NCBI GenBank assembly: GCA_951802425.1
Contig: OX637801.1
Location: 2,728,001 to 2,792,000, forward strand
Reading direction: 5' to 3'
Length of the DNA: 64,000 nt
Source: Clavaria fumosa
Lineage: Eukaryota > Basidiomycota > Agaricomycetes > Agaricales > Clavariaceae
The position numbers and the translations under genes were made by a program. The notes under the pieces were generated by a model. The model searched no databases and had not been told where the DNA came from. It saw only the letters and a program-made list of their open reading frames with translations. This document shows, piece by piece, positions 2,666 to 55,504 of the stretch. The stretch's first letter is position 1; each line of letters begins with the position of its first letter.

Positions 2666-3390
2666 TGTTACGACCCCATCCGCTTGCATAAGAACCATCT
2701 CCGCCCTGGACTCCGAGCTCCGTACCAACTCCGATCCGCTCCGCCGTAACTCCGTACGCCCCACTCCGCATCTTCATCGGACTTTACTCCGCCGACCTTC
2801 GGACCATTCGGACTTCGTTCTAGAACCTTCTCCCTCCATCCCCTCATTCTGTTTACTATTGAGAGGATACCCTTGACCCATGGGAGTCGCTTTTGTTGTT
2901 GTTTCTTTGTTCCAAGAAAATTGCACAGGCACAAGTGGTGAAACTCTCCTAGTAATTTGATAAGTACATTGTTTCACATTACTCCTATACTCTGTCCTTG
3001 CAGTATAAGTTTCCACCTGTATCTCCCTGCTCCTCAGTTCGAATATTAACGTCTCTTGATCCTAAAAACATCTCTGAGCTTTCGTCCTCATCGTCCTTGA
3101 CGTTCTCCACGTCATCCGATCAACTCCGACCAACTCCGACGGACTCCGATCAACTTCGGAGTTTTGACTTGTGTTCTGATCCTCCCTTAGGTATTGTTCT
3201 TGTTTGATAAATAGGGACACGTATATACGCGGTGGCACAACACATACGTTGAGGCCGCAGTCCCATAAGTCTCTCTTCCTCGTGTTTACTTCTCCGTTTC
3301 TCCGATATCGGACTCCGACCAGACTCCGATAGAATATCTCCACTCCGTTCCGCTAACCCCTTCGCCGCTAACCTTGTTAGGACCGTGACA
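2666..3390 (+). mobile_element. LTR-D copy 2 (plus orientation)
   Basis: This 725-bp TG...CA LTR is inverted relative to 558-1282. It is preceded by gaggt (2661-2665), the reverse complement of the acctc that borders the outer end of copy 1. The sequence after it (gtcccagaagg) is neither a recognisable primer site nor a matching TSD. It may be a displaced 5' LTR of D or an independent insertion. It contains eleven ACTCCG hexamers. Confidence 0.8.
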
Positions 3391-3419
3391 GTCCCAGAAG
3401 GTCACAAAGGTGTTAAGCA

Positions 3420-3743
3420 TAGAGTGTGACATGGGTACGGGTAACCCACATGGGTTTCCTGGCAGGTACAGGTATGGGTAGGGTACAGGTAAGCATTCTG
3501 CTACCTGTGCACTTTAAAATAAGCCCTAGAACATCCAAAACAGACAGGAATTGGTTGAGATACATATGCCTATAACAATCTGAAATCACTGTTTCAAGCA
3601 TATCTCACTCAATTCCTGTCCGTTTTCAATGTTCTAGGGCTCATTTTGATGGGTAAACCCGCTGGGTATAGGTATGGGTACATCCCGGGTGCGGGTATGG
3701 GTCAGTGTCAAGATACCCACAGGCTTACCTGTGTCACACCCTA
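3420..3743. mobile_element. hAT-like MITE-1, 324 bp
   Basis: The left end is TAGAGTGTGACA, and the right end read inward is TAGGGTGTGACA. The flanks are an 8-bp near-perfect duplication, gttaagca (3412-3419) and gttaggca (3744-3751). Internal sequence is rich in GGGTA blocks, and the centre folds back on itself (ccctagaacat pairs with atgttctaggg). The TAGRG ends and 8-bp TSD fit hAT elements. There is no coding capacity. Confidence 0.85.
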
Positions 3744-3751
3744 GTTAGGCA

Positions 3752-4479
3752 AAGTGTAGAAAGGAGTGGAGAAGTGAAAGGTGTTGCTAAGAGGGTTGAA
3801 AGTAGTCATGACAATGAGGAAAGGTGTGTCAGTGAAGGCAATGACTTTGCCAATTGAGGGGAACCTGGAGGGGTTCCAGAAGAGTTAGTACCAAGATGAG
3901 GGAAGAGAAATACTTAGGTGCATGAGTATGTACAAGTGCAGAGGATGATTTAGATGAAAGCAGAGTGTGTCTTGGTGTTGTCAAGGTCACCAAGCAAGAC
4001 AAGACCTATCAATCATGTAGATTCCAAGCTCAAAGGGCATACTAGCCTCAAGCTTAAACCAAAGTGCATCAATATCAAGTCTACAGTACCATAAGTACAG
4101 GTGAGACTGACAGTATATATGTGTGTTGTAGGTATGTAACTACTTTGGGAAAGTACAAAGGTCTCCAGGTGACAGAACTATAGTAGTATGGGGTATGTTT
4201 AGTTGTAGAGTGACCATCTGTGTGTTCTACTAAGGTCACAAGGGGATAGGGAAACATAGGTAAGGTTGCAAGCCTGACCTAGTAAATAATCATATACATA
4301 ACTATAACTACAGGGGATCCTCAGATCATAGATAGCATAGCTATCACCAGATTCTGGCATATCCATGCATGGAGATATTCTAATTAGAACAATATGACTT
4401 GTGCATTTGAATTGTAATTTACCATTTGAAAATATATTCTAATTAGAATTGATTGAGGCTGTGCTCTGGGCTAAGGTAG
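3752..4479. other. Unassigned, no gene recognised
   Basis: No convincing reading frame, LTR edge or known motif was found. The sequence is ordinary in composition, becomes AT-rich after about 4300, and leads into the tandem array. Confidence 0.5.
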
Positions 4480-4985
4480 TAATGCATCAGATACTGTAAT
4501 TACCAATCAATTGTATGATGCATTGGCTTATAAACTCAATATGGAGCAGTGCATCCATGAAATCATGCATTATGAATTGTAATTACAAATCAGATTGGTG
4601 CATCAGCAATTCTAATCACAAATCAGACACATGCATCAGTAATTGTAATCATAAATCAATTGTGTCATGCATCAGCTAAGATGGAGCAATACATTCAGGC
4701 TGTCATGCATTATCAATTGTAATTACAAATCAGACTCATGCATCAGTAATTGTAATTATTAATCAATTGTGTCATGCATCAGCTTATATGTAGGAATGCA
4801 TGCAGGCTGTCATGCATCATCAATTGTAATTACAAATCAGACTCATGCATCAGTAATTGTAGTTATTAATCAATTGTGTCATGCATCAGCTTATATGGAG
4901 CATTGCATGCAGGCTATCATGCATTATCAACTGTAATTACAAATCAGATTGATGCATCAGCAATTGTAATTATTTATCAATTATC
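4480..4985. repeat. 107-bp AT-rich tandem array
   Basis: The block catgcatta/catcaattgtaattacaa...catgcatcag...catgcaggctgt repeats with anchors at 4704, 4811 and 4918, which gives an exact period of 107 bp. More diverged units extend left to about 4480. Each unit holds several ATGCAT and caattgtaatta palindromes. It abuts the presumed LTR of element B. Confidence 0.85.
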
Positions 4986-5269
4986 AGACTGGGTCTCACG
5001 CAACTTGGGGGTAAGGTTGTGATGACAATACTAACATAAGGGGAAAAGAGTACAAAATAGGAAAAGATGAAGTATATATACTGAACACTTCGGCATTTGC
5101 TGGTGTTCCCATGCTCAGACCTTGCAGATCATGTGATGCACCCAAGCCCCAAGTCAGGTGATCTCTTGATTATGTAATCCTCCACCACAGGTCATGTGAC
5201 CTTCCAACAATCTTCTCTAGTTTCTCCACAACTCCTCTTTTGGGATGGCTTAGGTAAGTGATCCTAACA
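4982..5269 (-). mobile_element. 3' LTR of chromovirus B
   Basis: The right edge (minus-strand TGTTAGGATCAC) is well placed: it directly follows a minus-strand polypurine tract TTAAGAGGGGTGA at 5270-5282. The left edge at 4982 is inferred from similarity to the element E LTR end (tatcagactgggtctcac against tgtcagtccaagtccctcac), which implies a mutated terminal CA. A TATA-like tatatact lies inside at about 5075. Confidence 0.55.
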
Positions 5270-5284
5270 TCACCCCTCTTAAGG

Positions 5285-6690
5285 CTGGGTGTCTCAACCA
5301 GCTAGCTTGGCCTTGTCAGGGTGGGCAAGGAAGAAGTCCTGGAGCAGCAGCGCCATGTTGGTGAGATTATGTCATGGCTCCCAGGTGTTCTCCTCCACAG
5401 GGTACCCCAACCACTTCACTAGATACTTCACCTCACATCCCACCTTCTTGACATCAAGGATAGCTTCAACATCGTACTCCAGGTGGTTGTCCTTGATCAT
5501 GACAGGGGGTGGTGGTGGAGGATTCTGGGAGGTGAAGAAAGGGGCAATATAGGGAGTGAACAGCACCTCATTGAAGACAGGGTGGATGTGCCAGGCTGGG
5601 GGGAGCTTGAGTTGATACCCACCTGGCCCAACCTTCTCCATAATGGTGAAGGGGCCTGCTTGCTTATGGTTGAGCTTCTTGGAGGGCCAGTCCATCTTCA
5701 GGTTCCAGGTATCCAGCCAGACCAAGTCTCCCTCAGCATACATATGACTCAGGCACTTCCCAGCATTGTAGCTCTTTTTCATCACTTCTGCCACTTTCTC
5801 CATAGCCTCTTTGGCTGCTCTTCAGGATTCTGTGAGCTTGTCCATCCACTCATCTGCCGCTGGGTTCACTTTTGAGGGAGGCTGGATTCCACCATTCCAA
5901 GGGTGTTGGCCATACTCAAGGAAGAAAGGTGTCTGTCCCATTGCTGAGTGCTCATGATTGTTAAGAGCAAACTCTGCAGTGGACCACCATTCAGCCCAGT
6001 CATCCTGGAGGTGGTCCACATAAGCCTGGAGATAGATCTCCATCTTCTGGTTCACCTGTTCTGTCTGTCCATCAGTCTGTGGATGAAAGGCCATACTTGG
6101 ATTTGCCTTTACCTGAATCATGGAGTAGAACTCCTTCATGAAGCAGGACATGAACTGGGAGCCTTTGTCACTCACGACCTTGTGAGGGACTCCATGGTCA
6201 CAAAACACTCAATCCTGGAGGAGGTGTGCCACTCCAAGTCCTGTGAGGTCAAGCCCAATTGCTTCAAGCAGCATCCATTTTGTGAACTTGTCAACAATGA
6301 CAAGGATGGCATTATGTCCACAGGAGAGGGGGAGGGGACCAACTATGTCCCATGAGATCACTGACCAGGGACCATTGGGAACAGGGTGGGGGTGGAGTGG
6401 GGCAGCCCAACTTGGTATGGTCAGGCTTTGTCCACTGGCATGTCTCACACCCCTGGGCATACTGATCTGCATCTTTCATCATGTCCAGCCACCAATAACC
6501 CTTCACTAGTGCTGCTCTCAACTTCCATGGTCCAGGGTGTCCAGCAGCAGGGAGGTCATGCTCAAATTTGAGGACAGCCTCACAAGCTCCCAGGGGGACC
6601 CAAGTGACTATCCCCTTTTGCCAGAGTCCAGCACAATCTTGTGTCCACTCATCGTCAAGCTCCTCAGGCTTCTGCAAGTGTGCCGTGCTA
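5285..6690 (-). pseudogene. Chromovirus B integrase and chromodomain
   Basis: Minus-strand frames, broken by stops near 5372, 5810 and 6209, encode an integrase closely related to that of element E. Visible in order are the Zn-binding CEGCQWTK-like end, the core aspartates in SWDIVGPL and VSDKGSQF, the core Glu in TEQVNQ, the GDLVWLD segment, and a chromodomain (LEYDVEAILDVKK, YLVKWLGYPVEENTWEP). The activity would be cDNA insertion, but the frame is not continuous. Plus-strand frames here are shadows. Confidence 0.8.
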
Positions 6691-7480
6691 TTTCAGGAGT
6701 AGCATCTCCATTTCCAATGTGAATGACACATGGGTCTCCACTTCCAGGAAGACTTGTACCAGCATGTCCTCCTCCACCATCTCTCCATAGTCTGGCCTCC
6801 ACAAGAGTGCATCTGCCTTTGTGTTTGACTTCCCAGTGCAATACTTTATCTCAAAGTCAAAGCACTGGAGCTCCCCAACCCAATGAACCTGCCTTGGCTT
6901 CAACTTCTGGGGCTTCTGGAAGTACTGAAGATTCACATGGTCTGTCCAGATCTTGATTGTCTCATCTGCTCCAATGAGGTACACTCACCACTCACAAAGT
7001 GCCCAAATCACAGCCAAGAACTCCTTGTCATACACATCATAGTTCTTTTCAGCTGCCATCAGGGCCTTGGAGATGTAGTCCACCACTCTCCAGGTCCCAT
7101 CCACCTGCTGCTGTAAAAGCACTCCACCAGTTGCCAAGTTGCTTGCATCCATCTCTACCTTCCATCTCCCTTTGTCTTGTGGTAGAGCCAAGACTGGGGC
7201 TGATATGAGAGCCAAGTGGAGATCTTGGAAAGCTGCTTCCTCCTCCTCCTCCCATTTCCACAGAACCTTCCCAGTCAGCCAGAATAGTGGTTTAGCTTGG
7301 GCAGAGAGGCTCCCAGTGTGTTCTGTAATCCAAACCACATGACAGCTGGTTCAAAGAGTCCACAAGGTGTCAAGAAGGTGCAGTGGTGCTGGTGCTCTGG
7401 CCAGACCTGCATGGATGGAAAACCTCCCTTCACATCAATCTTAGAGTAGATCGATGCTCCCTTAAGCACATCCACTTCAG
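6688..7480 (-). pseudogene. Chromovirus B RNase H and reverse transcriptase remnant, catalytic segment deleted
   Basis: The minus strand encodes an RNase H (VEMDASNLATGGVL, YDVYDKEFLAVIWAL, WTDHVNLQYF). Upstream, the RT text passes from MWFGLQNT directly into a segment equivalent to AKPLF.LTG in element E. The roughly 110 residues that carry YIDD in E are missing, with the junction near 7315-7325. The copy is therefore catalytically dead. Other frames show several stops. Confidence 0.8.
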
Positions 7481-8351
7481 ATGCAGGGGAGGGGGTATTT
7501 GTCCTTGATCAGATGTGCATTCAGCCTGGAGTAGTCGATAATCGGCCGCAGTTTGTTCTTCTCATGTTTGAAGAAGAAAGGGCTAGCATATGGGGATTTC
7601 GAGGGCCAGATATGTCCAGAAGCCAGCTGCTCATCCACCCAATGGTTCATCTCCACCATCTCATCTCGTGTCAAAGAGTATAGCTTGGAGGAGAGGTGCT
7701 CAGGGTCCTTTCTGAACTCGATCTTGATATCGAAGTCCGGTTGGGAGTGGGGAAGCTCATCCCACTTTGCTTCACTAAAAACTGAAGGGTAGCAGCTGGG
7801 CCAATCAGGGTAGGGCCAGAGTTGGGAAAATGGGTGTTCTTCTCGTGTTTGAAGAAGAAAGGGCTAGCATATGGGGATTTCGAGGGCCAGATATGTCCCG
7901 AAGCCAGCTGCTCATCCACCCAATGGTTCATCTCCACCATCTCATCTCGTGTCAAAGAGTATAGCTTGGAGGAGAGGTGCTCAGGGTCCTTTTTGAACTC
8001 AATCTTAATATCAAAGTCCAGCTGGGAGTGGGGAAGCTCATCCCACTTTGCTTCACTAAAAACTGAAGGGTAGCAGCTGGGCCAATCAGGGTAGGGCCAG
8101 AGTTGGGAAAATGGGTGTCTGGAATACTCACAGATGTGAGGGTACTTGTCTTCAGGGGTGTGGCAGCTTTCAGGAATGGGGAACACTGTGGGGGGAAGTG
8201 GGTAAGGCTTAGCTCTGCCTTCTGCCAGTTGATATCTGGGTTATGTTGCTTGAGCCAGTCATGCCCAAGGATGACCTTGTGGGACTGGGACTTTCCCAGC
8301 AGAAAGTGGATCCACTCCTGGTGGTCACCAACCCTCACCAACAACTCTATC
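7477..8351 (-). pseudogene. Chromovirus B protease to RT N-terminus with internal duplication
   Basis: The minus strand carries the end of the aspartic-protease region (WIHFLLGKSQSHKVILGHDWL) and the RT N-terminus (LASGHIWPSKSPYASPFFFK, LRPIIDYSRLN). A 281-bp tandem duplication (7555-7835 and 7836-8116) repeats the SPYASPFFFKHEKN region and shifts the frame. Sequence upstream of the protease, including gag, is missing because X-type sequence is joined at 8352. Confidence 0.8.
7555..8116. repeat. 281-bp tandem duplication inside B pol
   Basis: Two adjacent copies begin gttcttctc at 7555 and 7836 and run through gttgggaaaatgggtg. They differ at a modest number of positions, so the duplication is not recent. 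Confidence 0.9.
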
Positions 8352-8667
8352 TGTTGGGCTTGTGACAGCAAAACCCCTTTGGTGTGCAAGGGTAGAGCGA
8401 GGTGTCTGTTCAGTCTCTAATGCTAGTCAATAGTCCTGTCAGACTTGTCTCTCTATATGCAGGGAATACTCCTGCTGTAGTCAGAGTGTCTGGTAATAGG
8501 TCTGTGGATTGGCTCAGAGTAGTTGGTCCTTTATCCAAGTCCTCATGTACCTCTGGTAATACTCGAACCAATAGAGGTTCTGTTTGATTGATGGGTGGCT
8601 GGTGAAACTCTCAGGAGGGATGACTTGCAACCTTAAAGGTGGGAAGATGAATCCTTCCAGTGCAAAG
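8352..8667 (-). pseudogene. Fragment of repeat X (leader and start of its ORF)
   Basis: The minus strand matches the sequence split by element C (38010-38125 then 49430-49650), including aaggattcatcttcccacc and the encoded text YYQRYMRTWIKDQLL and LALETEQT. It has several stops here. It lies between the truncated ends of B (8351) and A (8668), so both junctions look like deletions or recombination points. Its function is not recognised. A gag-like protein of an LTR element is one possibility. Confidence 0.6.
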
Positions 8668-10447: not shown

Positions 10448-11861
10448 CGTTCCAATCATTGTTGAAATGGACACATCAGATTACGCGATTGCCACAATCC
10501 TGTCCATCGAATTTCCGGCATGAGAAATTCATCCAGTCGCATTCCATTCCTGCACTATGCACGCTGCGGAATTGGATTATGACATGCATGACAAGGAACT
10601 CTTAGCGATATTCGAGGCTTTCAAGGTCTGGCAACATTACCTCGAGGGATCCACATTTCCCGTACAGGTGTACACCAACCATAAAAACCTGGAATATTTC
10701 GGCACCACCCAGACTTTGACCCGATGTCAAGCCTGGTGGTCAGGGTACCTTTCTGCGTTTAATTTGGAAATCCGATTCTGCCCTGGAAAACTCAGAACCA
10801 AACCCAACACTCTGACCCGACGATGGGACATCTACCCTAAGGAGGGGGAAAGCGGATATGCCGATGTAAATCCGCACAATTTCCGACCCATATTCACACC
10901 AGAAAAGCTCACGGACGCCCTCCGGGAAGCACAAACCATGCTTCGATCCGTCCTCGTTATGGATGACCAACAACTCCGATCCGACATTCGGGACTCTCTT
11001 AGGAGCAACCCGATTGCCTGTGCGCGACTTGACGAAGTTCTCGCAGATCTGCACATCAAACCACGATGGTCCGTAGATGATACCAGACTTCTCCAATTGG
11101 ACAACCAGATTTATGTCCCTGATGTCTGAGACCTCCGACTTCGAGTCCTGCTGTACCAACATGACCACCCAGTCTCCGGCCATTTTGGACTCAACAGGAC
11201 ACTAGACCTGATCCACCAGGAATATATGTGGCCTGGCCTCCAAAAGTTCATCACAGAATACTGCAATTCCTGCACAAACTGCGGGAGATCTAAAGTCCCC
11301 TGGAATAAGCCCTATGGACTTCTCCAGCAACTTCCGAACCTGGAGAAACTGTGGAATTCAATTTCCATGGACTTCGTCGAAAAGCTACCCGAGTCCGGAG
11401 GATTTGCTTCCATCCTCGTAGTTGTCGACTGGCTGTCCAAGCAAGGGATCTTTATCCCGACACATGACACCATTACCTCCTTGGAATTGGTGAAACTTTT
11501 TGTTACTCATGTCTTTTCCAAGCACAGGATTCTGTCTCATGTAACATCCAACTGAGGTCCGGAGTTCGTCTCCCACTTTTTCCAGTCCCTGGGAAAAGCA
11601 CTCAGCATGAAATTACATTTCTCGTCCAGGCATCACCCCGAAGCCGACAAACAAACTGAGCATACTAACCAGACCCTAGAACAGTATCTCCAAGCGTACT
11701 GTAACTACCAACAGGATGACTGGTCCGACCTACTCCCACTTGTGGAATTTGTGTATAATAATGCCCTGAGTGTGACAACCAGAATTACTCTGTTCTTCGC
11801 GAACAAGGGATTCCACCTGAATCTTTCCATTTCCATTTCCGGCACCTTCTCTTCTGCCCGG
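10448..11861 (+). pseudogene. Element A RNase H and integrase (first part)
   Basis: RNase H is visible as EMDTSDYAIATIL, YDMHDKELLAIFEAF, YTNHKNLEYF and a FCPGK stretch. The integrase zinc finger follows (HPVSGHFG...CNSCTNC), then the core with DFVEKLP. The second catalytic region reads TSN-stop-GPEF, so the usual Asp is lost and a stop is present. TEHTNQ carries the Glu. Stops at about 11128 and 11553 break the frame. Element G2 interrupts the protein inside its C-terminal half at 11861, and the sequence continues at 32507. Confidence 0.85.
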
Positions 11862-11909
11862 TGTAGTAGGCTGTGCAGGTGTTGGCTGCAAATAGATGTT
11901 CGCAGCCGG
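11862..11909 (-). mobile_element. G2 3' LTR, piece 1
   Basis: These 48 bp starting tgtagtaggctgtgcagg match the first 48 bp of the LTR at 31601. They end in ccgg, the TSD of solo LTR a. Confidence 0.9.
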
Positions 11910-12826
11910 TGTAGTAGGCTGTACAGGTGTTGGCTGCAAATAGATGTTCGCAGCTGGGTTCTTCAGGGGGTCTTATTACACAACGGGTACACTAGACAGA
12001 ACTTTGGAGGATGTAGAGGTTGAGTGCAAAAGGTTCAGAGAGTGAAAATATACGTTGTCCGGAGTATCCGGTATCGGATCCGATAGAGTCCGATGTTTGG
12101 ATCGAAGGTTCGAGGGGCCGGCGACGACGAAGGCCAGCGGATCAATAGGTATGACGAAGGGTGAGCTTGCTAAAAATCACAGCACGATGTGGGCGTTCAA
12201 AAAGCTGGATTTCCATATAGTCCGGTACATACTTAAGTACATTTTTCTAAGTACAGCATACCCGATTCTACGGAAATCTCCGGAAGCTATAGAAGGCAGT
12301 GTGATATCGTACAAGGGGTCATATAGGGGTCTTTAATTTGTAAAGGAGTCATGCGGTTCGGAGGGAAGGAATATCCGATGACTAGCACATGTCTGGATCG
12401 CTCGTAAACTGAAGGAGAGTGTAGGTGGTACAGCAAAGGAGTACTAGGAACAAAGGGCAAGGCAGTGCAAAGGGTCTGAAACGTATCAATGAATGGATAC
12501 TTGAAAGGGATCAAAATATGAAATTTACAGCATGGTATATGAAATACGGGAATGGGAATGGAATAGTGAGTGCGTTGAGCGCTGACCATGCTGGAGTGAT
12601 GAAATGGAAAGGCATAGGCGGTGTGTGTGACCTGTGGGTTGTGATCATCATGGGGAATTAGAGACCGGAGAGTCCGATGTCAGATATTTATCGGATGTTC
12701 CGGATGTCGTCGGACAGTATCGGATCGTTATCGGATCACGTCGGGCGTAATTATCTTGGATGCCAAAATATCCGGATAGTCGATATCTGTTAAGTTTCCT
12801 TGTTTAAACAACATATCATCCTTACA
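11910..12826 (-). mobile_element. Solo LTR a (G family) nested in the G2 LTR
   Basis: This 917-bp LTR runs from tgtagtaggctg to atccttaca. It is flanked by ccgg at 11906-11909 and 12827-12830. Removing it rejoins gcagccgg to gttcttcagg, exactly as in the intact 906-bp LTR at 31601. It has no internal region, hence a solo LTR. Confidence 0.92.
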
Positions 12827-13103
12827 CCGGGTTCTTCAGGGGGTCTTATTACACAATGGGAACACTAGAAAGAACCTTGGAGGATGTAGAGGTTGAGTGC
12901 AAAAGGTTCAGAGAATAAGAATATACGTTGTCCAGAGTATCCGGTATCGGATCCGATAGAGTCCGATGTTCGGATCGAAGGTTCGAGGGGCCGGCGACGA
13001 CGAAGGCCAGTGGATCAATAGGTATGACGAAGGGTGAGCTTGCTAAAAATCACAGCACAATGTGGGTGTTCAAAAAGCTGGATTACCATAGAACCTGGTA
13101 CGT
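12827..13103 (-). mobile_element. G2 3' LTR, piece 2
   Basis: The sequence continues the G2 LTR from ccgggttcttcagg to cctggtacgt, where G1 begins. The last four bases, acgt (13100-13103), are repeated after G1 at 22940-22943. Confidence 0.9.
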
Positions 13104-14020
13104 TGTAGTAGGCTGAACTGGTGTTGGCTGCAACTAGGTGTTCGTGGCCTGGTTCTTCAGGGGGTCTCGTTTACACGACTGGGACACTAAACAGAACTTC
13201 GGAGGATATAGAGGTTGAGTTGTAAAAGGTTCAGAAAGTGAGAGTATACGTTGTCCGGAGTGTCTGGTGTTGGATCCGATAGGGTCCGATGTCTGGATCA
13301 AAAGTTCGAGGTGCCGGCGACGACGAAGGCCAGCGGATCGAGGGATACGACAAAGGGTGGGCTTTTTCGAGATCAAAGCAAGATGATGACGGTCCAAAAG
13401 CTTAATTCCCATAGAGTCCGGTATGTACTTATATACATTTTTCTAAGTACAGCATATCCAGTTCTACAGAAATGTCCGGAAGCTACAGAAGGCAATGTGA
13501 CATCGTGTACAAGGTCATGTAGGGGTCATAATCCATAATGGAATCATGCGGATCGGAGGAATGAAATATCCGATAACTAACATATGTCTGGACCGCTCAT
13601 AAAAGAAGGAAAGTGGGGCTGGTACAGCAAAGGGGTACTAGGAACAATGGACAAAGTACTGCAAAGGGTTTGAAACGTTTAAACGATTGAATGGTTGAAA
13701 GGGATCACAATATGAAATTTACAGCATGGTATATGAAATAAAGGAATGGGAATGGAATAGTGAGTATGTCGAGTGCTGACCATGCTGGAGTGATGAAATA
13801 GAAAGGCATGGGCGGTGTGTGTGACCTGCGGGCTGTGATCGTCACGGGGGATTGAAGATCGGAGAGGCCAATATCGGACATTTGTCGGATGTTCCGGATG
13901 TCGTCGGATAGTATCGGATCGTTATTGGATTGTATCAGACATAAATGCTTTGGATGCAAAAATATCCGGATAGTCAATATCTGTCGTGTTTCCATGTTTA
14001 AACAACACATTATCCTTACA
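13104..14020 (-). mobile_element. G1 3' LTR
   Basis: This is the left, downstream LTR of the minus-strand element, from tgtagtagg to atccttaca. TCGGA pentamers cluster at 13855-13925, and TCCGGA palindromes occur elsewhere. Confidence 0.9.
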
Positions 14021-14052
14021 ACGTACTTAAGTACATTTTCGTAAGTACAACA
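14021..14052. repeat. 32-bp copy of G1's right-hand flank, inside its left LTR
   Basis: The sequence acgtacttaag...gtaagtac lies between the end of the 3' LTR and the polypurine region, where G2 has nothing. It matches 22940-22971, the DNA just outside the opposite LTR, with one mismatch. Confidence 0.85.
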
Positions 14053-14202: not shown

Positions 14203-15691
14203 ATGGAAAACTTCGACACTGTAATTTTTCAAAACGTGGTTCAGGCCATGGTGGAAGCACAGGCCGTGGCTCCGGGGAACGTTTTACCTGAACGGGGCCA
14301 AGATGCTGAATACACGGAGTGGGTACGGGGGTACGGAGGGGATGCGGTGCGCAATAGTATTTTTTGTTTGTGGTGTTGAGCTGACATATATGTTTGTAGG
14401 ATGATTTTCTTGCCGGATATGTGGAGGTAGATGAGGGGCTCGTGGCCGTCGCGCAGAGGCTGAAGAAATGGAAGAAGCAGCGTGGTGAAGTATGGGCCGC
14501 CGAGCTGGCCGTGCAACAGGAGCGAACGGAGGCCGAAAAGCGTATTGCGGAGGAGAAAGCGCAGGTAGAGACGGAGGCGGAGAGGATTGCCGAGAAGAGG
14601 GCACGTCTTGCCCGGGCGCGCCTGATCGTTGTTAGTGACAGCGACGACGATGGCGAGGCGGCAGCGGCAACAACAACAACAACAACGGGGGCGGCGGAGT
14701 CCGGCACAATGGCAGCAGCAACGACGATGGTATCGCCGGACGCCGCGGAGCTGCGGAGGTGGAGACAGGAAAGGTACGGATGGCAGCGGCGGAAGATCGG
14801 GACGGTCATCGGACCGTGTGGGGAACCGACGGGGTGACGCCCGTCGGTGTTATCGAGGCGGCGGCAGTGAGTGCGGTGGCCGGGGGAGGCGAGCAGACGG
14901 TCGAGGAGCCCGTGCTGGTGCACCGGGACAGCGGACGGATGACAGCGACCCCGGTGTGGGTGGAGATCGCGAGGCGGAAGGCGGCGGAGCGGGGGCGAGG
15001 GAGGAGGAGCGGAGCGGGGGATGACATAAAGTCCCGGGCTGCGCGGCAGCCTGGAGATAAGGTGAGTGGTCGATTAAAATGTGTGAGGGTTTTAGGTGTC
15101 TGATCTAATGAATAGGAGCACCATCTGGGATGCGAGGAGTGCGCCAGGAAGCGGTGTGCGTGCTACGGAGTGGAGGGGATAGCGTGCCGGTGGTGCTGGT
15201 CATATAAGGTGTCGTGTAGTTTGTCGGCTGTGCGAGGTAAGTAATAATAGTTTCTTTCCGTGCTGAGGTGAATAATAGGTGAGTTTTCAGGGATGAAGTC
15301 GGAGAGGGCACCAGTGTCCGGGGTTGAGGGTGAGTTGAGGAGTTACCGGATCCATGTTGACTAATGTGTCCGAGCAGGTCCGAAGGTGGGGGAGGCGAGC
15401 GGCAGCAAGAGGCCAAGACGGGGTGCGACGCAAGCACCGGTTCGTGAGGAGACGACGCCGGAGGAGGAGGAGGATGAGATCGAGGAAGACGATAGCGTGG
15501 AGGTGGTGGAGGAGCCGCCGGCGAAGAGGAGGAAGGCGGAGGCAGGTCCCAGCCGGAAGGGAAAGGAGCGGGAGACGGCACCAGGGGTGTCCAGAAAGGA
15601 GGCGCTGGAGAGAGCGCTCCAGATGATGGAGAGGGGGGCGGATCAGGTGAGGGCTGGGGCGGAGCTTCTCCAGATGCTCCTTCTCGGCTAG
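14203..15691 (+). pseudogene. Antisense Zn2Cys6-like gene of G1, five exons
   Basis: The ATG at 14203 (MENFDT) starts a gene on the strand opposite G1 pol. Proposed introns are 14347-14399, 15062-15115, 15237-15290 and 15330-15377, all GT-AG and about 50 nt. Exon 2 encodes a Lys/Glu/Arg/Ala coiled-coil-like region and an acidic SDSDDD patch. Exon 3 encodes CEECARKRCAC and CRWCWSYKVSC separated by seven residues, which gives CX2CX6CX7CX2CX6C. Exon 5 holds an acidic stretch, a basic KRRK and a C-terminal helix (ERALQMMERGADQ). A frameshift near 14760 breaks exon 2. The likely role is nuclear DNA binding, inferred from cysteine spacing. The G2 copy confirms the exon structure. Confidence 0.65.
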
Positions 15692-15912: not shown

Positions 15913-17310
15913 TTAATGGCGAGGCCGAAGGTTCCGGGTTGCTCCAGAGCGTTGCGGAGGGGTTTCCAGAGTGTCGTTGTCAGCGGCTTCTTTATCGGAT
16001 TGATCAGATGGATCGGCCGCCTGGCTTTCCTCATCTTCGGTGTTGATAGAGTTATGTGACGTCTTGTGTGTTTGATTGTGAGGGACGTCCTCGTTTATCT
16101 CCATTGTTTGGTCGATGATAGCAGTGACCAGAATCGATGTTTGCGACCGCGGATAGTAGGGAATGATGCGGAAAGCTGCGTAGTGGATTTTGGAGACGGC
16201 GCCGTCGAGTTCCGAGAGGATGTATGCGCCGTATTGAGTTCGGCGGATGACGATCATCGGTCCGAAGAATTGCGGTTTTGTTTTCTGATTTAATTCCATT
16301 TCAACGGCCGAATTGTGGATCAATACCAACGATCCGGGTTGGAAGTTGTAATCGATAATAGACTTGTGGTGTGCGTCGATGAACTGCTTGACGGATTGTT
16401 TGCGGGCAGTGAGCACTTTATCAGCGATTGTTGCTAGATCTTCTTCTCGTTTTTGCAGTTGGCAGGCACGAAGGGCTATCAGTTCCGGAGTGGTCATCGG
16501 GGCATCGGCAGTCGGAATTAGATATGTTGCTTCGGATATGTCGAAAGGGAAAAGCGGTTCGACGCTGTGTGCGATGTAAAACAGAGAGTGACCGGTGGAT
16601 CGCTGGATTGTGGTTCGTTCTGCCCAAATGACCGAGGGTAAGATGTCCAGCCATTTCGATTCATCTCCGTCTGCTGCTTTGATTAATGACTCGCGGACTG
16701 ATCGGTGGGCACATTTGATGACGCCATTAGCGCGAGAATTGTATCCGGAAATACAGATGTGATGGATTCCATACTGCTTCTTGAGGAAATCAAGGGCTTT
16801 GATAAATGGGGCACTGTTATCCATGATGATCTCTTCTACTGCTCCCCATCGGCACAGTATATCTTCAAATATGAAGGTTCCGAGAAGTCGGGCGGTCTCG
16901 TTTCGTAGCGGTCTTGCTTCCGGGTATGTGGATAATGAGCATCGGGCGTGGACAAGAAGTCGGAAACCACGGGCTCTGGGAAGGAACATAGTATCAATGT
17001 GCGCTCGACGGAAAAGACCGGCCGGTGTAGCGACTGTCGGCGGAATGAATATCTTTCGGATTTGCCGAGTCTGACACTGGTGACAAGTTCGAACAAACCA
17101 CTTTATGTCTTGATCCAACATCGGCCACCAAAACCTATTTAAAAGATGTGTCCGGATAATGTAAATGCCCTTGTGGCCAAGTGAATCATGTGCCTCCGTG
17201 ATAATTGCAAACTGTTTGTGGTCCGGAGGTACTACCTGATGGCATCTGTTGGGTTGTCGGCGCCATAGCTTGTCATCAAGGATGAAGAACTCGGATGCTG
17301 AGCGGACTAA
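15913..17310 (-). pseudogene. G1 integrase
   Basis: The minus strand gives an HHCC zinc finger (AHDSLGHKG, CHQCQTRQ), then the core with IDTMFLP, a second region reading MDNSAPF (G2 has TDNGTPF) and GVIKCAH where G2 has GVIERAH. The catalytic Glu is thus Lys in G1, explained by GAA to AAA. A stop near 17309 corresponds to CGA in G2. The C-terminus is Ser/Asp/Glu-rich and has no obvious chromodomain. The function would be strand transfer of element cDNA, but this copy should be inactive. Confidence 0.85.
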
Positions 17311-18057
17311 TCATCGGAACTGGTTTGTGTCGGTGCCAGAAGGACGGATTGGATTTCGAAGGAAAGATTCAATTTTGCGGATTTGTTCTTCTCTTTTCTT
17401 AGCCACGTCAGATCGGGGTATAAGGGTGGCGGAGGATTCGTTCGGGGCCGGTGAATCATCGGATGGTAGCGTAGAATTGAGTAGCATCGATCCTGTGTAA
17501 ACTTTGAAGCCAGTATGGGCGATGCCGGCGAGCCGCGCCTCAGATAGATAGGAAGGTTCCGGTGCTCGATTCATGTGTTCCATGGTGAACACGTAGCTCC
17601 GATCGATCCATTCTTCGTGATCTTCGGATTCAGTATCTTCTTCACCATCTGCAGCACATCGGCGTGATAATCCGTCGGCTCCGGTGTGTTTATCTGCGGG
17701 AATGTGAACAAGGTTGAAATCGAAGAGTAGTATACCGGCAATCCATCGATTCATGGCAGCGTTTGGTTGAATGTCTGGATTGTTTAGCATGCCCTTAATG
17801 AATTTCGCATCCATTTCAACTGTAAATTTCAGAAGGCCGATAAGGTAAATCCGGTATGACCGAAGTGCATGGAAGAGTCCATATAATTCGATTTTTGCTT
17901 GAGAGTATCGGGCCTCACGTTCGTTCCACGTAATCGAACCGAATCTGGATGGGTATCGGATTCCATCTTGTCCGATTTGAAATAGTGCGAAGCCGACAGT
18001 GATGTTGGACGAGTCGACAGGCATAATCACAGGTCGTCCAGAGCGGTAATCGATCGG
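17311..18057 (-). pseudogene. G1 RNase H and connection domain
   Basis: The minus-strand frame runs through DSSNITVGFALFQIGQDG, YSQAKIELYGLFHALRSY and VEMDAKFIKGMLNNPD, ending in a variable acidic linker before the integrase. The layout matches an Agaricomycete gypsy family with an RNase H that carries this SQAK...ELYG variant. It follows RT without a gap, apart from a frame break at about 18057. Confidence 0.75.
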
Positions 18058-19158
18058 TCAGATAGCGGATGAGTTGAGAATCGCGTTTTTGAGTCGGTCC
18101 ATCAAATTTTGCTCTTCTTCTTCGAACCTGAATGGAACATCCTTGCAAGTTAGACTGACGAGAGGTCGGGCAAGTATGGCGTAGTTTTTAATGAATATCC
18201 GGAGCAGCCCGCATACACCTAAAAATGATCGGACATCTGTGAGTGTTCCGCAAGGAGGCCAGTCTCGGATGCGCTGAATATTGGAAGCGTCCGGAATTCG
18301 CCCTTCATATGTGCACATGTGTCCGGTAATGATTGCCTCAGGTGTGCAGATTGTCGTTTTCTTGCCATTAAAGGTTCCTCCGACTTTCTTGATTTGTTGG
18401 AGCACCCGATTGACGTTATTCAAATGTTCCCAAACAAACCGCCGTATTTGCGGATTCTCCGGGATCGTCTCGTAGGTGCCGTCCAGAAGCTCATATCGGG
18501 TTTCCGGGCCCTTGATCGCTACATCGTCTACGAATGGGATGGTTACGTGCGGAATTTCGTCTTGTAGTATATGCATGACGTCTCCATGCATAATCTGCGT
18601 CGCGTTGGTGTATCCCATGGGGATGCAAGTGAGTCGTTTGGCTCCGAGAGGGGTTTGAAAGGTGGTAAGGTCTCGGCTTCGCTCGTCCAGAGACCGCTGA
18701 TTGAAGGAGACGAAAAGGTCGAGTGATCCGTAGCATCCGCGTCCGGTGAATGATTCCGCAAAAACCTCCATTATCAGGGGAACCACGGAGTCGCCGATAG
18801 TGACTTTGTTCAATGGCTGGAGGTTGTGTACAAGTCGGAGAGACTTTCTGTCTTTCTTTAACACGCAAAACCACTGGGACTGATAGGAAGAGTTGGATTC
18901 TTCGTAGACTCCCACAGCTATCTTCTCTCGGATGACCTTCAGAACCTCATCGTAGATTCCAGGGGGGATCGGTATATTTTTGAAGATCCAGGGAATGTGT
19001 TCGACTGTCGGAATGATAATCGGATCGAAGTATTTTGCGTCGAATCGTCCTTTTTCGGTCTCTTTCCATGCAAAGGCATCTTCCTGGGCTTTAATAAGAT
19101 AGTGAACGAGTTTTTCTTCCTCCGGCCATAGAAATCTGGTGGGATTTGCGTTGTGCAC
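18058..19158 (-). pseudogene. G1 reverse transcriptase
   Basis: The frame of about 366 residues is intact here. Motifs are SSYQSQWFCVLKKD, LRLVHNLQPLNK, LDLFVSFNQRSLDE, LTTFQTPLGAKRLTCIPMGYTNA and the catalytic FVDDVAIKG, followed by the thumb and connection (FLGVCGLLRIFIKNY). The catalytic aspartate pair is retained, unlike in G2. Upstream coding is interrupted near 19200. Confidence 0.88.
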
Positions 19159-19159
19159 T

Positions 19160-19811
19160 TCTTTCTGGTCTTGAGTATATCGGAGACCAGGGGTGAAATC
19201 AGGGGGGTGTGTTGGAAGAATCAGGATATCGGCTAAGGGGTCCGGATGTCAGCGACGAACAATCCGAAATTCTTCGGGTACTGTTGCTTTGATCGGATTG
19301 ACGCGATTCGCGACTTTCTTGTATTTCTTTCCCAAGTAAACTGGAAAAACGGGGTCTGTAGATGGGGAATTTATTTCGGGAGTATTGTTGTACAAGGGAT
19401 TTGCGACATTTCGACGTGATGGTTCACATCCAATAGCAACTGGGGAATCAATGGAATCGAGAGAAACATCCGAGATACTGATACAAGGAAGGGGATCGAG
19501 GGGAACTAGATTTACAAAGGAAGACAATGAGGAATTGTGAACAGAAGTGGGGGGAATCGCTGGAGCCTCGTATCTGGGTATAGCTTCCGTGTCCACATTG
19601 ACCGGAGAAGAGTCTGTAAATCTGCGGATATTTGAGGCTCCAGCTCTCAAAAATCCGAATGCGGTTTCTTGTTCTTGAGGGTTTTGCGGATCGGGATTTG
19701 CTCTTTTGTTGGCACTATGATGCGTTGTCCTGTGTTTGGATCGTTTAGAATAAGGTCCTGGTCCCCGTGGGGATGGTCTATTGTCTGGGAACCGGTTAAC
19801 ATGAAAAACAG
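19160..19811 (-). pseudogene. G1 protease-RT linker
   Basis: The minus strand encodes a low-complexity linker (SPVNVDTEAIPRYEAPAIPP, PVYLGKKYKKVANRVNPIKA) that leads into RT. It is homologous to 28412-29227 in G2. Stops and frame changes separate it from both gag-protease and RT. Confidence 0.7.
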
Positions 19812-21809
19812 TCATCCGACAAGAACCTCGCAGGGCAACGTGTCTGCCACTTGCATTTGAACATGGAATGTGCACGGACCGATCTGTAGGGGGAAATTTT
19901 TGATGAGTCCGAGCGTCGGAGCGATGGTGCCATGAGAGGATTCCATGTGAATAATGTTTTCGGAGTGTAATGGGTTGCCGAGTTTCTCCCAAACGTCTTG
20001 CTGCATTGCTACAATTGAACTTCCCTGGTCGAGAAGGCACTCCGCGGCAATCCGGTTATCCAATATGCCTTCAACGATGCGGAGCGGAGCGGCATTGACA
20101 GCTACAACAAGATCGGAGGTGTCCGGGGCTGTAATGTGTGTGTAGAGCGTATCCTGTACGACAGACGCGGTGACCAGAACGCGGCGGGCGGTAACCATGT
20201 CCTTCATCTTTTTGCGGATATCTCTGGAAATGGCGAGTAGTTCACGGGGTGTCACGTGGACCGGGATGTCAAGTGCGCGATCGAAAACTTGCTGAACGGT
20301 TACCGGATTTTCGATCGGAGCTTGGTAATGATACTGGATGTCGGGTCTTTCGATTCTTTCCGGCTTTGATGGACAAGTAACCTGGGGTGTCGTAATAACA
20401 ACGGCGGGCGGGGGTGGTAACCTAGATGGCTGGGGATCGCTATTCCTGGGTGTGGGCGCTTTCCTTTTGCCCTTGTCTACTTTCTTCGCGACATCGTTTT
20501 CGAACGTGCGGACCATATTTTCCAACGCAGTCCTCTCGTTATCTTCTTCATCCGATTCGTCTTCCATGTCCGGGGAGTGAGCGGATGGTCCGATCGGCTG
20601 TGCTTCAAATACCGCGGTAGTCGCCGGTTGCATATTCTGGGATTGATAAGTGGCGTAGTACTTGTCAAAGTGCTCCGATAGGTTATTTCCCACAATAGTG
20701 CCTGGCAAGTATTGTCCGGATGGAAGGCAGATTCTGCCTTCGGTGTTCCGTATGCATTTACCAGACTTAATGTATTCGAGGGCCTTCGGACAGGCACTAA
20801 CAAAATGACCTAGTTCCGAGCAGAAATTACACGTCCGGTTTGCAGGGGAATTCGTCGTCTGAGGAGCAGAACATTTTGCCTGTTTGAGAGACTGGGCTGA
20901 TAAAATTGATTCGAGGTGAGCCATTGTGGAAGCGAATGTTGCCAAGGCTGCGGACATATCAAACTCTTCCTTCTTGACCACCGGTTTCGTTTCTCTCCCA
21001 GGGGCTGAAGATGCGAAACGGACGGGTCCGGAGAATTGATCGGTTGTCACAGAGTGTGGGGACGTCGAGGAGAGTAGGAACTCGGCTGCCACGTGTACCT
21101 CATTCATGGGGTATGGATCCTCCGGATGGTGATTTGGTAGTATAATTGCGAGCCGGTTCTCGATCTGGTGTCTTGTATGATCCCCAAATCCGAGGATGTA
21201 AAGTCGGTTTCTGTCATTTGTGGACATACGTTGGGAAGTGATCAAGTGCGAAGTGATCCGGAGAAAGTCCCGGTAATATTCTCCGTGTTCTGCGCACATA
21301 TAAACTCCTTTATGGGCCGAATCCGATATGAAACGATCCAAATCGGCGACGGAAAATAAACGGCCACCATCAGATCCTGGATAAAGGCGTCGGACAGCCG
21401 CTTTGAAGGTTTCCCAGGTCCATACCGGGTCCGGGTCTGGTGTGAGGGTCTCCCAGAGGAGACATGTGTCTGTGTCAAGGTAATGCTTTGCGTACCGAAT
21501 TAAATCAGCTTCGGGAACATCTGGATTAATGCCAGTGAGTACGATGTCGATGTCCTCAAAGTACCGGTTGAGGTGTGTCGGTACTCTGTCAAAGGCGGGG
21601 GCCCCGTGAGCGCCACGGAGCGGATCTCGGTTGGTTAGCCATTTGTATTGGTGCGTACGGTGGTGAGTGAACTTCGTCCAGTAAAATCTGGGGTGCTTCG
21701 GGCGGGAAGTGAAGGGTGTTCGATTCGAGGGGGAGTGGTGTAAGCGGTTCTTCGAAGGTCTGTGGTAATGTGATAACGGGTGTCGCAAAGCTCGTATGGG
21801 AGTATACAA
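19812..21809 (-). pseudogene. G1 gag and aspartic protease
   Basis: The long minus-strand frame contains the gag core (RYFEDIDIVLTG, LYPGSDGGRLFSVADLDRFI), a CCHC knuckle CNFCSELGHFVSAC, a Ser/Pro-rich spacer and the protease with LLDQGSSIVAM. The protease triad reads DQG instead of D-S/T-G in both G1 and G2, so this is a family trait. The N-terminus is out of frame compared with the G2 MSFATPV start. Gag would form the particle and the knuckle would bind RNA. Confidence 0.85.
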
Positions 21810-22022
21810 TGGATGAGATACTTGGGATGTCTGATGGGAGTAGATGAGAAGTTTCGATTACTTCTCTGGTATGTTCGGTATGTGGTGGTTCCGAGGTCGG
21901 ATCCGGGTTTCGCGCTCTTAGTCGTTCGGAACGTCGAGGCCGGGAAGCGGATGAGCCTCTGGGGATCCTTGAAGACTGTAGTGAAGACGTTGTTATGACC
22001 CCCTCGTGGTGGGCTCCAGAAT

Positions 22023-22939
22023 TGTAGTAGGCTGAACTGGTGTTGGCTGCAACTAGGTGTTCGCGGCCTGGTTCTTCAGGGGGTCTTGTTTACACGACTG
22101 GGACACTAAACAGAACTTCGGAGGATATAGAGGTTAAGTTGTAAAAGGTTCAGAAAGTGAGAGTATACGTTGTCCGGAGTGTCCGGTGTTGGATCCAATA
22201 GGGTCCGATGTCTGGATCAAAAGTTCGAGGTGCCGGTGATGACAAAGGCCAGCGGATCGAGGGATACGACGAAGGGTGGGCTTTTTCGAGATCAAAGCAA
22301 GATGATGACAGTCCAAAAGCTTTATTCCCATAGAGTCCGGTATGTACTTATATACATTTTTCTAAGTACAGCATATCCAGTTCTACGGAAATGTCTGGAA
22401 GCTACAGAAGGCAATGCGACATCATGTACAAGATCATGTAGGGGTCATAATCCATAATGGAATCATGCGGATCAGAGGAATGAAATATCCGATAACTAAT
22501 ATATGTCCGGACTGCTCATAAAAGAAGGAAAGTGGGGCTGGTACAGCAAAGGGGTACTAGGAACAATGGACAAAGTACTGCAAAGGGTTTGAAACGTTTA
22601 AACGATTGAATGGTTGAAAGGGATCACAATATGAAATTTACAGCATGGTATATGAAATAAAGGAATGGGAATGGAATAGTGAGTATGTCGAGTGCTGACC
22701 ATGCTGGAGTGATGAAATAGAAAGGCGTGGGCGGTGTGTGTGACCTGTGGGCTGTGATCGTCACAGGGGATTGAAGATCGGAGAGGCCAATATCGGACAT
22801 TTGTCGGATGTTCCGGATGTCATCGGATAGTATCGGATCGTTATTGGATTGTATCAGACATAAATGTTTTGGATGCAAAAATATCCGGATAGTCAATATC
22901 TGTCGTGTTTCCATGTTTAAACAACACATTATCCTTACA
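22023..22939 (-). mobile_element. G1 5' LTR
   Basis: This 917-bp LTR starts tgtagtagg and ends atccttaca. Inside it (to the left) is TGGAGCCCACCACGAGG on the minus strand, a primer-binding-like site. The flank to its right is the remainder of the G2 LTR. Confidence 0.92.
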
Positions 22940-23528
22940 ACGTACTTAAGTACATTTTCGTAAGTACAGCAAATCCGGTTCTACAGAAGTTTCCGGAAAC
23001 TACAGAAGGTAATGCGGTATTGTGTGCAAGGTCATATAGAGGTCATGGATCATAGAAGAGTTATGCGGTTCAGAGGAATGAAGTGTCCGATGATCGGTGT
23101 ACATCTGGACCGCTCGTAAAATGAAGGAGAGTGAGACTGGTACAGCAAAGGGGTACTAGGAACAATGGACAAAGCACTGCAAAGGGTTTGAAATGTTTCA
23201 ATGATCGGATGGTTGAAAGGGATCACAATATGAAATTTACAGCATGTATATGAAATAGAGGAATGGGAATGGAATAGTGAGTATGTCGAGTGCTAACCAT
23301 GTTGGAGTGATGAAATAGAGGGGTGTAGGCGGTGTGTATGACCTGCAGGCTGTGATCTTCATGGGGAATCGGAGACCAGAGAGTCCGATGTCGGATAAGT
23401 ATTGGTCATTATCGGACGGTGTCGGATTGTTATTGGATTGTATCAGACGCAATTGCCTTGGATCCCGAAATATCCGGATGGTCGGTATCTGTCATGTTTC
23501 TATGTTTAAACCGCATATTATCCTTACA
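22940..23528 (-). mobile_element. G2 3' LTR, piece 3
   Basis: The sequence continues from acgtacttaag to atccttaca, matching the second part of the 31601-32506 LTR. It borders the G2 polypurine tract at 23529. Confidence 0.92.
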
Positions 23529-23687: not shown

Positions 23688-25269
23688 ATGGAAAACTTCG
23701 ACACTCTCGTTTTCCGGAATGCGGCCCAGGTGATGACGGAGGCACGGACCATGGCACCGGGTGAGGAATTGCCGGAGCGGGGGCAGGACAGTGAGTACGC
23801 GGAGTGGGTGCAGATATATGGGGGTGATGCGGTACGTGGTGTTTCTTTCTTTCTTTTTTACTTTGCACTGACAAGTTTTCAGGATGATTTCCTTGCCGGC
23901 TATGTTGCCGCAATCGACGATGACGTGGAAGTGGACGAAGGACTCGTCCTCGTCGCGCGAAGGCTCAAGAAGTGGCGAAGGCTCCGTGGGGATGAATGGA
24001 CCGCCAAGCAGACGAGGAAACAGGAGGAGGCCGAAGCTGAACAGGAACGTGCGGACAAGGAGAGGGCGGCCGCCGAGAGGGCTGCAGCGGAGACGGAGGC
24101 GAGAAGGGTAGAGGCGGCGAGGGCTGCCGAGAAGAGGGCGCGCCTTGCCCGGGCGCGCCTCATCGTGATCAGTGACAGCGACGACGATGGCGGGGCGGCG
24201 GCGGCAGCAACAGCAACGACAGGAGTGGATGAGCCCACCGCAGCGGCGGCGGCAACAACAACGGTATTGCAGGACATCGCGGAGCTGCATGCGGACGAGG
24301 TGGCGACTGCAGAGGTGGAGACAGGAGAGGTGCGGGTGGCAATGGCAGAGGATCGGGACAGTCATCGGACCGTGTGGGGAACCGACGGGGTGATGCCCGT
24401 CGGTGTTATCGAAGCGGCAGCCGTGAGTGCGGTGGCCGTGGGGGGGCCCGCAGACAGTGGAGGTGCCCCTCACGTTGGAGCCTCGGGTGGGTGGGCGGAT
24501 GACGGCGACTCCGGTGTGGGTGGAGATCGCGAGGCGGAAGGCGGCGGAGCGGGGGCGAGGGAGGAGAAGCGGGGTGGGGGCTGATATAAAATCCCGGGCT
24601 GCACGGCAGCCTGGAGATAAGGTAAGTGGTTGATTAAAATGTGTGAAGGTTTTAGGTGTCTGATCTAATGAATAGGAACACGATCCGGGATGTGAGGAGT
24701 GCGCCCGGAAGCGGCGCGCGTGTTACGGAGTGGAGGGGATAGCATGCCGGTGGTGCCGGATGTACAAGGTGTCGTGCAGCTTATCGGCTGTGCGAGGTAA
24801 GTAATATTCTTTTTATTTCCGTGCTGAGACAAATGATAAGTATGTTTCAGGAGTGAAAACAGAGAAGGCGGCGGTGTCCGGCACCGGGGGTAAGTCAAGG
24901 GGGTATTGGATCCGTGTTGGCTAACGGAGCAGAGCAGGTCCGAAGGCGACAGAGGTGACCGGAGGCAAGAGGCCGAGGCGAGGTGCGACGCGGGCACCGG
25001 TTTGTGAGGAGACGACACCGGAGGAGGAGGAGGAGGAGGATGAAATTGAGGATGACAGCGTGGAGCTGGTGGAGGAGCCGTCAGCGAAGAGGAGGAAGGC
25101 GGAGGCGGGTCCTAGCCGGAAGGGAAAGGAGCGGGAGACGGCGCCAGGGGTGTCCGGATGGAAGGCGCTGGAGAGAGCACTCGAGATGATGGAGAGGGGG
25201 GCGGATCAGGTGAAGGCTGGGGCGGAGCTTCTCCGGATGCTCCTTCTCGGCGAGTCGTTTACAGTGTAA
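23688..25269 (+). pseudogene. Antisense Zn2Cys6-like gene of G2, five exons
   Basis: The ATG at 23688 (MENFDT) is opposite to G2 pol. GT-AG introns are proposed at 23832-23882, 24622-24675, 24797-24850 and 24890-24937, at the same positions as in G1. Exon 2 has a long Glu/Arg/Ala helix and an SDSDDD patch. Exon 3 has CEECARKRRAC and CRWCRMYKVSC, i.e. CX2CX6CX7CX2CX6C. The last exon has an acidic run, KRRK and a helical end. One frameshift lies in a G-run near 24440. Apart from that break, splicing yields a continuous protein. The function is unknown, and a DNA-binding regulator is the simplest inference. Confidence 0.7.
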
Positions 25270-49051: not shown

Positions 49052-49089
49052 CGGGCACGTCAAGACGACGGACCACTGGGAGGGGATAA

Positions 49090-55493: not shown

Positions 55494-55504
55494 TGGCCCC
55501 CTCC

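Follow-up and report, generated by a model that had tools for sequence, protein, structure and literature searches.

Antisense zinc-cluster-type genes and CGGA-rich LTRs in gypsy elements of Clavaria fumosa: a candidate self-regulating circuit

We propose, with a probability of roughly 0.55, that at least three gypsy lineages carry an antisense gene of the Zn2Cys6 type whose product regulates the element's own LTRs via the short sequence CGGA. A more ambitious version, to which we would give somewhat less than even odds, holds that the three lineages each acquired a Zn2Cys6 factor of their own in antisense orientation, that CGGA, the half-site of this factor, came to fill their unrelated LTRs (in G mostly as CGGAT, in D and A as CGGAG), that the outcome is a selfish auto-activating or anti-silencing circuit, and that one family is non-autonomous with the regulator as its only intact gene. 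The underlying observation is an element-encoded protein paired with motif enrichment in non-coding DNA, the coding parts being enriched too and binding being a prediction; it suggests that these elements bring their own switch.

Antisense genes and the elements that carry them

The window, i.e. the whole 64-kb stretch of DNA that was analysed, holds four copies of such genes, in elements designated G1, G2, A and D, and all four are damaged: G1, G2 and D carry frameshifts, and A has an early stop and an apparent insertion. The relevant features are as follows.

557-1282, plus strand: D LTR, rich in CGGA/CGGAG
1515-2509, plus strand: accessory gene of D in a copy that is rearranged and frame-shifted, with its Cys blocks at 1855 and 1925
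13103-14023, minus strand: G1 3' LTR, CGGA-rich
14203-15691, plus strand: G1 antisense gene, frame-shifted copy, modelled from 40 aligned copies
14203-14346, 14400-15061, 15116-15236, 15291-15329 and 15378-15691, plus strand: exons of the G1 gene, from the same 40 copies
15131-15217, plus strand: G1 Zn2Cys6-type motif CX2CX6CX7CX2CX6C in exon 3 (motif scan)
15913-21857, minus strand: G1 gag-pol, with RNase H and integrase zinc domain above the Pfam cut-off and RT and protease matches below it
22022-22942, minus strand: G1 5' LTR, 97% identity with the 3' LTR
12827-13101 and 22940-23528: G2 3' LTR, split by G1
23688-25269, plus strand: G2 antisense gene, frame-shifted copy (end coordinate from the original prediction)
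24691-24777, plus strand: G2 motif (motif scan)
31600-32509, minus strand: G2 5' LTR
32496-33095, plus strand: C-terminal integrase part and chromodomain of A, facing the antisense gene tail to tail (tblastn)
33198-34774, minus strand: A antisense gene, disrupted (early stop, apparent insertion)
33804-33949, minus strand: zinc-cluster motif of A, CX2CX6CX10CX2CX6C, interrupted by an intron of 50 nt (~33873-33922), placed from copy L041
34837-34842, minus strand: TATATA box ~68 nt before the A-gene ATG
34991-35500, plus strand: A 3' LTR, first part examined, inner edge ~34991
54910-61524, minus strand: E2, a gypsy element without accessory gene (control)

The original prediction that a gene with two CX2CX6C blocks lies antisense to pol is borne out for G1 and G2, where the gene is on the plus strand, pol on the minus strand and the motif present in 40/40 copies, and equally for A, where the chromodomain at 32496-33095 adjoins the gene and a single intron divides the motif, between CLWCAKCNL and LCKCTGPSWVKSCDECREKYVMC. 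For D the prediction stands in kind and fails for the copy at hand. In the D places with flanks (L086-L089, 4/4) the gene lies opposite the chromodomain end, tail to tail with the integrase C-terminus and with an LTR before its start (Pfam recognises the chromodomain at this C-terminus in L087), whereas in the window copy the two Cys blocks fall in different frames and the order is rearranged, because inverted LTR copies (557-1282 and 2666-3391, 98%) flank the gene, which shares its strand with the adjoining chromodomain fragment 3-188. Compared with L086-L089, the stretch 557-3391 (LTR, D gene, inverted LTR) looks as though an inversion had turned the LTR and the gene around, which self-integration or recombination could bring about. 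None of the matches listed for the D gene falls between the chromodomain of the D-type pol copy at 5372-8416 and the LTR at 2666-3391; a 107-nt tandem repeat occupies 4599-4982, within 3391-5372.

That G and A belong to different lineages, A with a chromodomain and G without, was likewise confirmed, Pfam giving no chromodomain match in the G1 gag-pol at 15913-21857. The G RT shares ~23-24% identity with the RTs of elements E1-E3 of the window, the A integrase pieces 28-42% with E1-E3, and the D fragments 47-79% at the amino acid level with E2 pol. The last ORF of E2 (55505-56368) ends 12 bp from its LTR, and the accessory gene looks modular because E2, D's close relative, leaves no space for it before the LTR. 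In the part of G gag-pol at 19812-21857, DUF4100 is matched weakly, below the cut-off, and the RT is highly divergent, G being a gypsy lineage distant from E1-E3. G1 sits within the G2 3' LTR, and the G1/G2 pair apparently interrupts A, whose pol lies at 10524-12023 and which continues at 32496 with its integrase end and chromodomain. Between integrase and chromodomain (43354-47603) E1 contains 33-nt repeat arrays and a 1,021-nt palindrome (98%, 42-nt loop). The tails after the chromodomain in E1 and E3 (48161-49086 and 52139-53064, 71% identity) hold no recognised gene and no full six-Cys motif, the longest stop-free stretch in E1 being 271 aa and that in E3 165 aa.

The genome searched comprises 48.8 Mb in 17 contigs, and copy counts are lower bounds, the best candidates having been scored. 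The G gene occupies at least 40 places (43 matched stretches, the best 40 of 164 candidates, G1 and G2 included) and the D gene at least 40, some partial and the window included (again the best 40 of 164); A-type genes occupy 27 (30 matched stretches, all candidates), of which 26 were examined, the fragment L067/L068 being left out. These numbers led us to reject capture in a single copy. That a host gene was passively captured not long ago and has since travelled as a passenger is also most improbable: the introns suggest an origin from DNA and not from mRNA, and zinc-cluster matches occur at 16 places elsewhere in the genome, but the abundance of G, D and A-type places, some of them partial, and selection across a median synonymous divergence of ~0.5 among the G copies argue against it. 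In 39/40 copies the ATG of the G gene has an LTR in the 400 bp before it, in 37/40 an opposite-strand integrase follows the gene within 900 bp, and 36/40 have both; absence from other full-length copies, which had been named as evidence against an accessory function, is not what is found for G.

Coding frames, selection and zinc-cluster identity

The model built from 40 copies gives the G gene five exons and four introns, the latter 48-54 nt long in the G1 copy of the window. Exons 1, 3 and 4 measure 144, 121 and 39 nt in 40/40 copies, GT..AG borders all four introns in 38/40 (L016 and L037 have lost the acceptor of intron 3), and CX2CX6CX7CX2CX6C is kept throughout (40/40). The frame is open in 19/40 copies, in 18 of them from an ATG (L029 has AAG). 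In these 19 copies, which were selected by their open gene frame, median dN/dS is 0.25 (range 0.21-0.49; 135/171 pairs with dS >0.05), and variable columns number 133, 139 and 248 (of 405) at the three codon positions. Four of the five alternative frames have dN/dS of 1.2-1.7; the three minus frames contain on average 2.5, 3.5 and 4.6 stops with dN/dS of 1.61, 0.34 and 1.46, respectively, the value of 0.34 (mean of 3.5 stops) belonging to the frame with the shared wobble position. Coding of this region on the pol strand, where there are open frames of 290 aa and 430 aa, was rejected on the basis of stops and dN/dS, and these frames look like shadows of the G gene. Amplification of G is recent, because seven copies (L022-L028) differ at just 0-4 of 1323 nt.

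The D gene is a single exon, open from the ATG in 7/16 copies (15 plus the window copy), with CX2CX6CX10CX2CX6C kept in 7/7 open copies and a median dN/dS of 0.38 (15/21 pairs with dS >0.05, 7 open copies). The test of frame and strand is weaker here than for G, because the alternative frames have dN/dS of 0.53-1.29 and two minus frames are nearly stop-free (averages of 0.1 and 0.4 stops).

The start of the A gene can be placed in 22/26 loci, and CX2CX6CX10CX2CX6C is obtained after splicing in 14/22 copies, in frame with the ATG in 12, with splice sites picked by motif search and L043 excluded, its match being another arrangement. In 22/22 copies a TATATA (21) or TATAAA (1) lies at -64 to -68 from the ATG, and in 20/22 copies the 400 nt before it contain the end of LTR pieces that resemble the L045 LTR; the edge in the window is set at ~34991 because several genome places match 34775-35500 only from there on. 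Since dN/dS has a value of 0.37 (0.27-0.67; 8 copies, 28 pairs) in the first 270-300 codons and of 0.49-0.83 (6 pairs) across the full open length, selection on A is weaker or the A genes are mosaic.

The comparison of dN/dS among copies that the original prediction had proposed (G 0.25, D 0.38, A 0.37-0.83 by part compared) thus yields purifying selection, which together with kept introns, Cys spacing and the many copies sustains the predicted selected accessory protein, most strongly for G. Regulatory roles are possible for antisense transcripts of LTR elements (PMC7264820), and the antisense RNA itself, e.g. as small RNAs, might be the functional product and the frame incidental; we regard this as very improbable, given that the dN/dS of 0.25 in G and the conserved Cys spacing and introns speak for selection at the protein level.

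The A-type copies differ in what surrounds the gene. A recognisable opposite-strand chromodomain lies behind it in 3/26 loci (L041-L043), the others being decayed or undetected; a search for pol in nine other loci returned weak, broken RNase H/integrase relics in five, nothing in three and a short chromodomain match in L062, the relics having ~30-41% identity (52% in one 23-residue piece). L044, L045, L049, L050, L052 and L057 resemble one another at 93-99% in the 1.4 kb that follow the gene, L047 and L053 aligning there over 531 and 370 nt only and L062 at 85%. In an A-type element with LTRs at C5:2081125 and C5:2087134, no frame beyond the gene exceeds 151 aa, and no RT match was found. To judge by this element, the one that was traversed, and by incomplete views of others, one A-type subfamily seems to be non-autonomous and to keep no intact gene but the antisense one. 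In L045:1-3755 and L092:1-2601 it is seen with an LTR pair, an open antisense gene and pol relics only; at the locus edge of L049 and L050 there is D LTR sequence (96-97%).

Zn2Cys6 clusters follow the spacing CX2CX6CX5-12CX2CX6-8C, which is found in 40/40 G copies, in 7/7 open D copies and, after splicing, in 14/22 A copies. Against the curated PF00172 cut-off of 21 bits, five peptides scored 22.2 (A-type, two partial stretches), 19.9 (D) and 11.2 and 11.7 (G), the second A-type peptide being unlisted. Pfam gave no zinc-cluster match for full-length G or for the window pieces of D and A, and the matches listed for the G, D and A proteins include no activation domain. The D protein has 12 relatives from other sources at 59-76% identity; five match the whole query and seven 29-67% of it, the six Cys are kept in 11/12 (P0014 is the exception), and Zn_clus matches 10/12 at E<=1 (best E 0.0035). 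A PDB search with the alignment of these relatives returned weak rows only (best E 0.29). The four relatives of the G protein (L024), of 244-255 aa and without zinc cluster, say nothing on the cluster because their match is confined to the exon 2 part, and for the A-type protein (L045 residues 135-320) there is no relative at E<=0.001 among 2703 candidates. In hhalign the G, D and A proteins align with one another best at the Cys segment, with E of 1.4e-4 for D-A and of 0.017 and 0.04 for G against the other two, D-A being the only alignment that appears convincing. Across the six frames of the window there are two instances of the full six-Cys pattern, both in G, against 0/60 in block-wise dinucleotide shuffles. 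The product would be a small protein of Zn2Cys6 type with a charged coiled-coil-like region, a zinc cluster, and basic and acidic stretches, and zinc binding by the G, D and A proteins is probable.

CGGA in the LTRs and beyond

The CGGA hypothesis was drawn from the G LTR first and tested afterwards. The G1 3' LTR contains at 13860-13918 a run TCGGA..TCGGAT..CCGGAT that proceeds in steps of 15, 11, 9, 10 and 10. When all 136 tetramers are ranked by observed counts versus those in dinucleotide shuffles, CGGA comes first in all five LTR stretches of G and D (21 vs 6.3 expected in G1, 17 vs 5.8 in G2, 23 vs 7.0 in an extra G LTR, 26 vs 7.7 in the D LTR and 13 vs 2.4 in a second one) and first again in the A LTR of L045 (36 vs 10.5). 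Ten of the 22 A-type upstream stretches (726-900 nt) were ranked, with CGGA first in seven, second in L047, and not enriched in L043 and L046. Two control LTR families without the gene place it at ranks 60 (E1) and 134 (E2), and two host stretches at 135 (L090) and 114 (L091).

Among G copies, CGGA reaches z >3 in 38/40; the two that fall short are L036 (2.9, half-length) and L039, where the LTR is missing. Retention between copies is 60% for CGGA, 41% for other tetramers with a CpG edge and 51% for tetramers free of CpG (13/40 copies), and it is higher for CGGA than for other CpG-edge tetramers in 145/156 ordered pairs, pairs that are not independent of one another. Just short words are shared between the LTRs of the three families (best E 0.026 over 21 nt), and the most frequent base after CGGA is T in family G and G in the other two. 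The Zn2Cys6 protein Pho7 reads TCG(G/C)(A/T).., and others typically read CGG pairs (PMC5559640); as the core of known Zn2Cys6 half-sites, CGGA is hence a candidate site in these LTRs. The function suggested at the outset, LTR activation or anti-silencing, gains support from this enrichment, which backs it independently.

CGGA is not exclusive to LTRs, because G gag-pol (rank 1, 123 vs 68) and the accessory genes are enriched as well (A 51 vs 19, rank 1; D 39 vs 16, rank 3; G 42 vs 24, rank 4); A pol has it at rank 2 (20 vs 10), and there is no enrichment in D pol (1 vs 3.1), E1 (26 vs 38) or E2 gag-pol (55 vs 54). Outside the LTRs of these elements the z values equal or surpass those of the LTRs, and the fold enrichment is 1.8-2.7 there versus 2.9-5.4 in the LTRs of G, D and A.

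It might be argued that this enrichment merely mirrors CpG decay context or coding bias and not protein binding, inasmuch as CGGA contains a CpG, Ala-Glu coding is able to raise it inside genes, and G gag-pol shares in it. We consider this unlikely: the shuffles preserve CpG counts, the A-type copies with many CGGA remaining (L044, L045, L049, L050) are strongly enriched, the CpG-poor D pol does not spare the tetramer, and the LTRs have no known coding.

A further account, doubtful in our view and yet to be taken seriously, accepts the protein as real and gives it another role, e.g. as a repressor that curbs the element, in integration targeting, in nuclear import or at host promoters, the CGGA richness having some other cause; it overlaps with the artefact just discussed, and the odds of the two are not meant to add up with the rest to one. 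The enrichment inside G gag-pol and the accessory genes would fit, the charged coiled-coil-like regions are compatible with many roles, and the sign of any regulation is unreadable from sequence. Conversely, the ratio of observed to expected CGGA peaks in the non-coding LTRs of three families that have only short words in common, the E1 and E2 LTRs lack such a rise, and the sites are kept between G copies. One A-type subfamily, moreover, seems to retain the gene beside a decayed pol, which argues against a mere pol cofactor.

A proposed circuit and its relation to known systems

Under the preferred reading, namely regulation of the element's own LTRs, the zinc-cluster protein would bind CGGA in the LTRs of the element that encodes it, and binding would raise LTR transcription or prevent silencing, acting on gag-pol at the 5' LTR and on the antisense gene itself at the 3' LTR. 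Such a circuit could feed back on itself, because the 3' LTR region is upstream of the antisense gene; the A gene would use its own TATA box. What is observed is the gene with its strand and position, the introns in G and A, the Cys spacing, purifying selection, and the enrichment of CGGA with, in G, its retention; zinc and DNA binding, CGGA as the site and the sign of the effect are inferred, and the protein might act by activation or by a VANC-like removal of silencing. Antisense placement would also let introns survive, since the sense genomic RNA cannot splice them out; if the reading is true, the preservation of introns and promoter is a simple reason for that placement. The recognisable DNA-binding-type motif and the enriched candidate site make the function directly testable with one protein and one LTR.

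An antisense gene read from the 3' LTR side is familiar from an animal retrovirus, HTLV-1, whose HBZ is a DNA-binding-type regulator of the bZIP class. The likeness lies in an antisense regulator gene on that side, and the difference in the bZIP, no homology being implied. An antisense promoter has been described in the 3' LTR of HTLV (PMC7264820).

The original prediction did not know the architecture as a described standard of fungal gypsy elements, a statement that is too wide, since antisense genes at this place are on record. Boty/BcGypsy1 of Botrytis cinerea carries brtn antisense between pol and 3' LTR (Zhao 2011 as cited in PMC8365987, PMC7264820), and resembles our elements in being a fungal gypsy element with an extra antisense gene; the descriptions in these two sources mention neither zinc cluster nor LTR motif. 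Plant elements have antisense aORFs (Grande gene23, RIRE2, Retand, PvRetro13) that agree in position and strand, occur in most copies and in some cases have nuclear products; they belong to another kingdom, their products are described as without clear similarity to other proteins, except for an SMC domain in PvRetro13, and their roles are given as not yet determined (PMC7264820). Placement of this type, opposite pol and beside the 3' LTR, is seen in 36/40 G copies and in 4/4 D places with flanks, while A-type copies have LTR pieces in 20/22 and the opposite-strand chromodomain in 3/26. The main text of a survey of fungal LTR retrotransposons (PMC3248453) does not contain the words 'antisense', 'zinc', 'opposite' or 'accessory', and a zinc-cluster gene antisense between pol and 3' LTR was not found in titles or abstract openings among the matches listed, in which subscription literature is thinly covered. 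Antisense placement is thus already known; zinc-cluster content in several lineages is what we did not find in print, and CGGA enrichment in the LTRs is new here.

With Gal4 and Pho7 the proteins share the six-Cys spacing and a CGG-type half-site as candidate target (PMC5559640), and differ in that their genes are carried by retroelements and that G lies far from the family profile. VANC proteins of VANDAL transposons remove silencing via motif arrays, with binding and demethylation demonstrated (PMC5735166), and the common theme is an element-encoded protein with dense short motifs in the element's own non-coding DNA, binding being inferred in our case; VANDALs are DNA transposons, with DUF1985/DUF287 domains and another motif (PMC5735166). 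If the reading proposed here is true, retroelements, like VANDAL transposons, can carry their own sequence-specific regulators.
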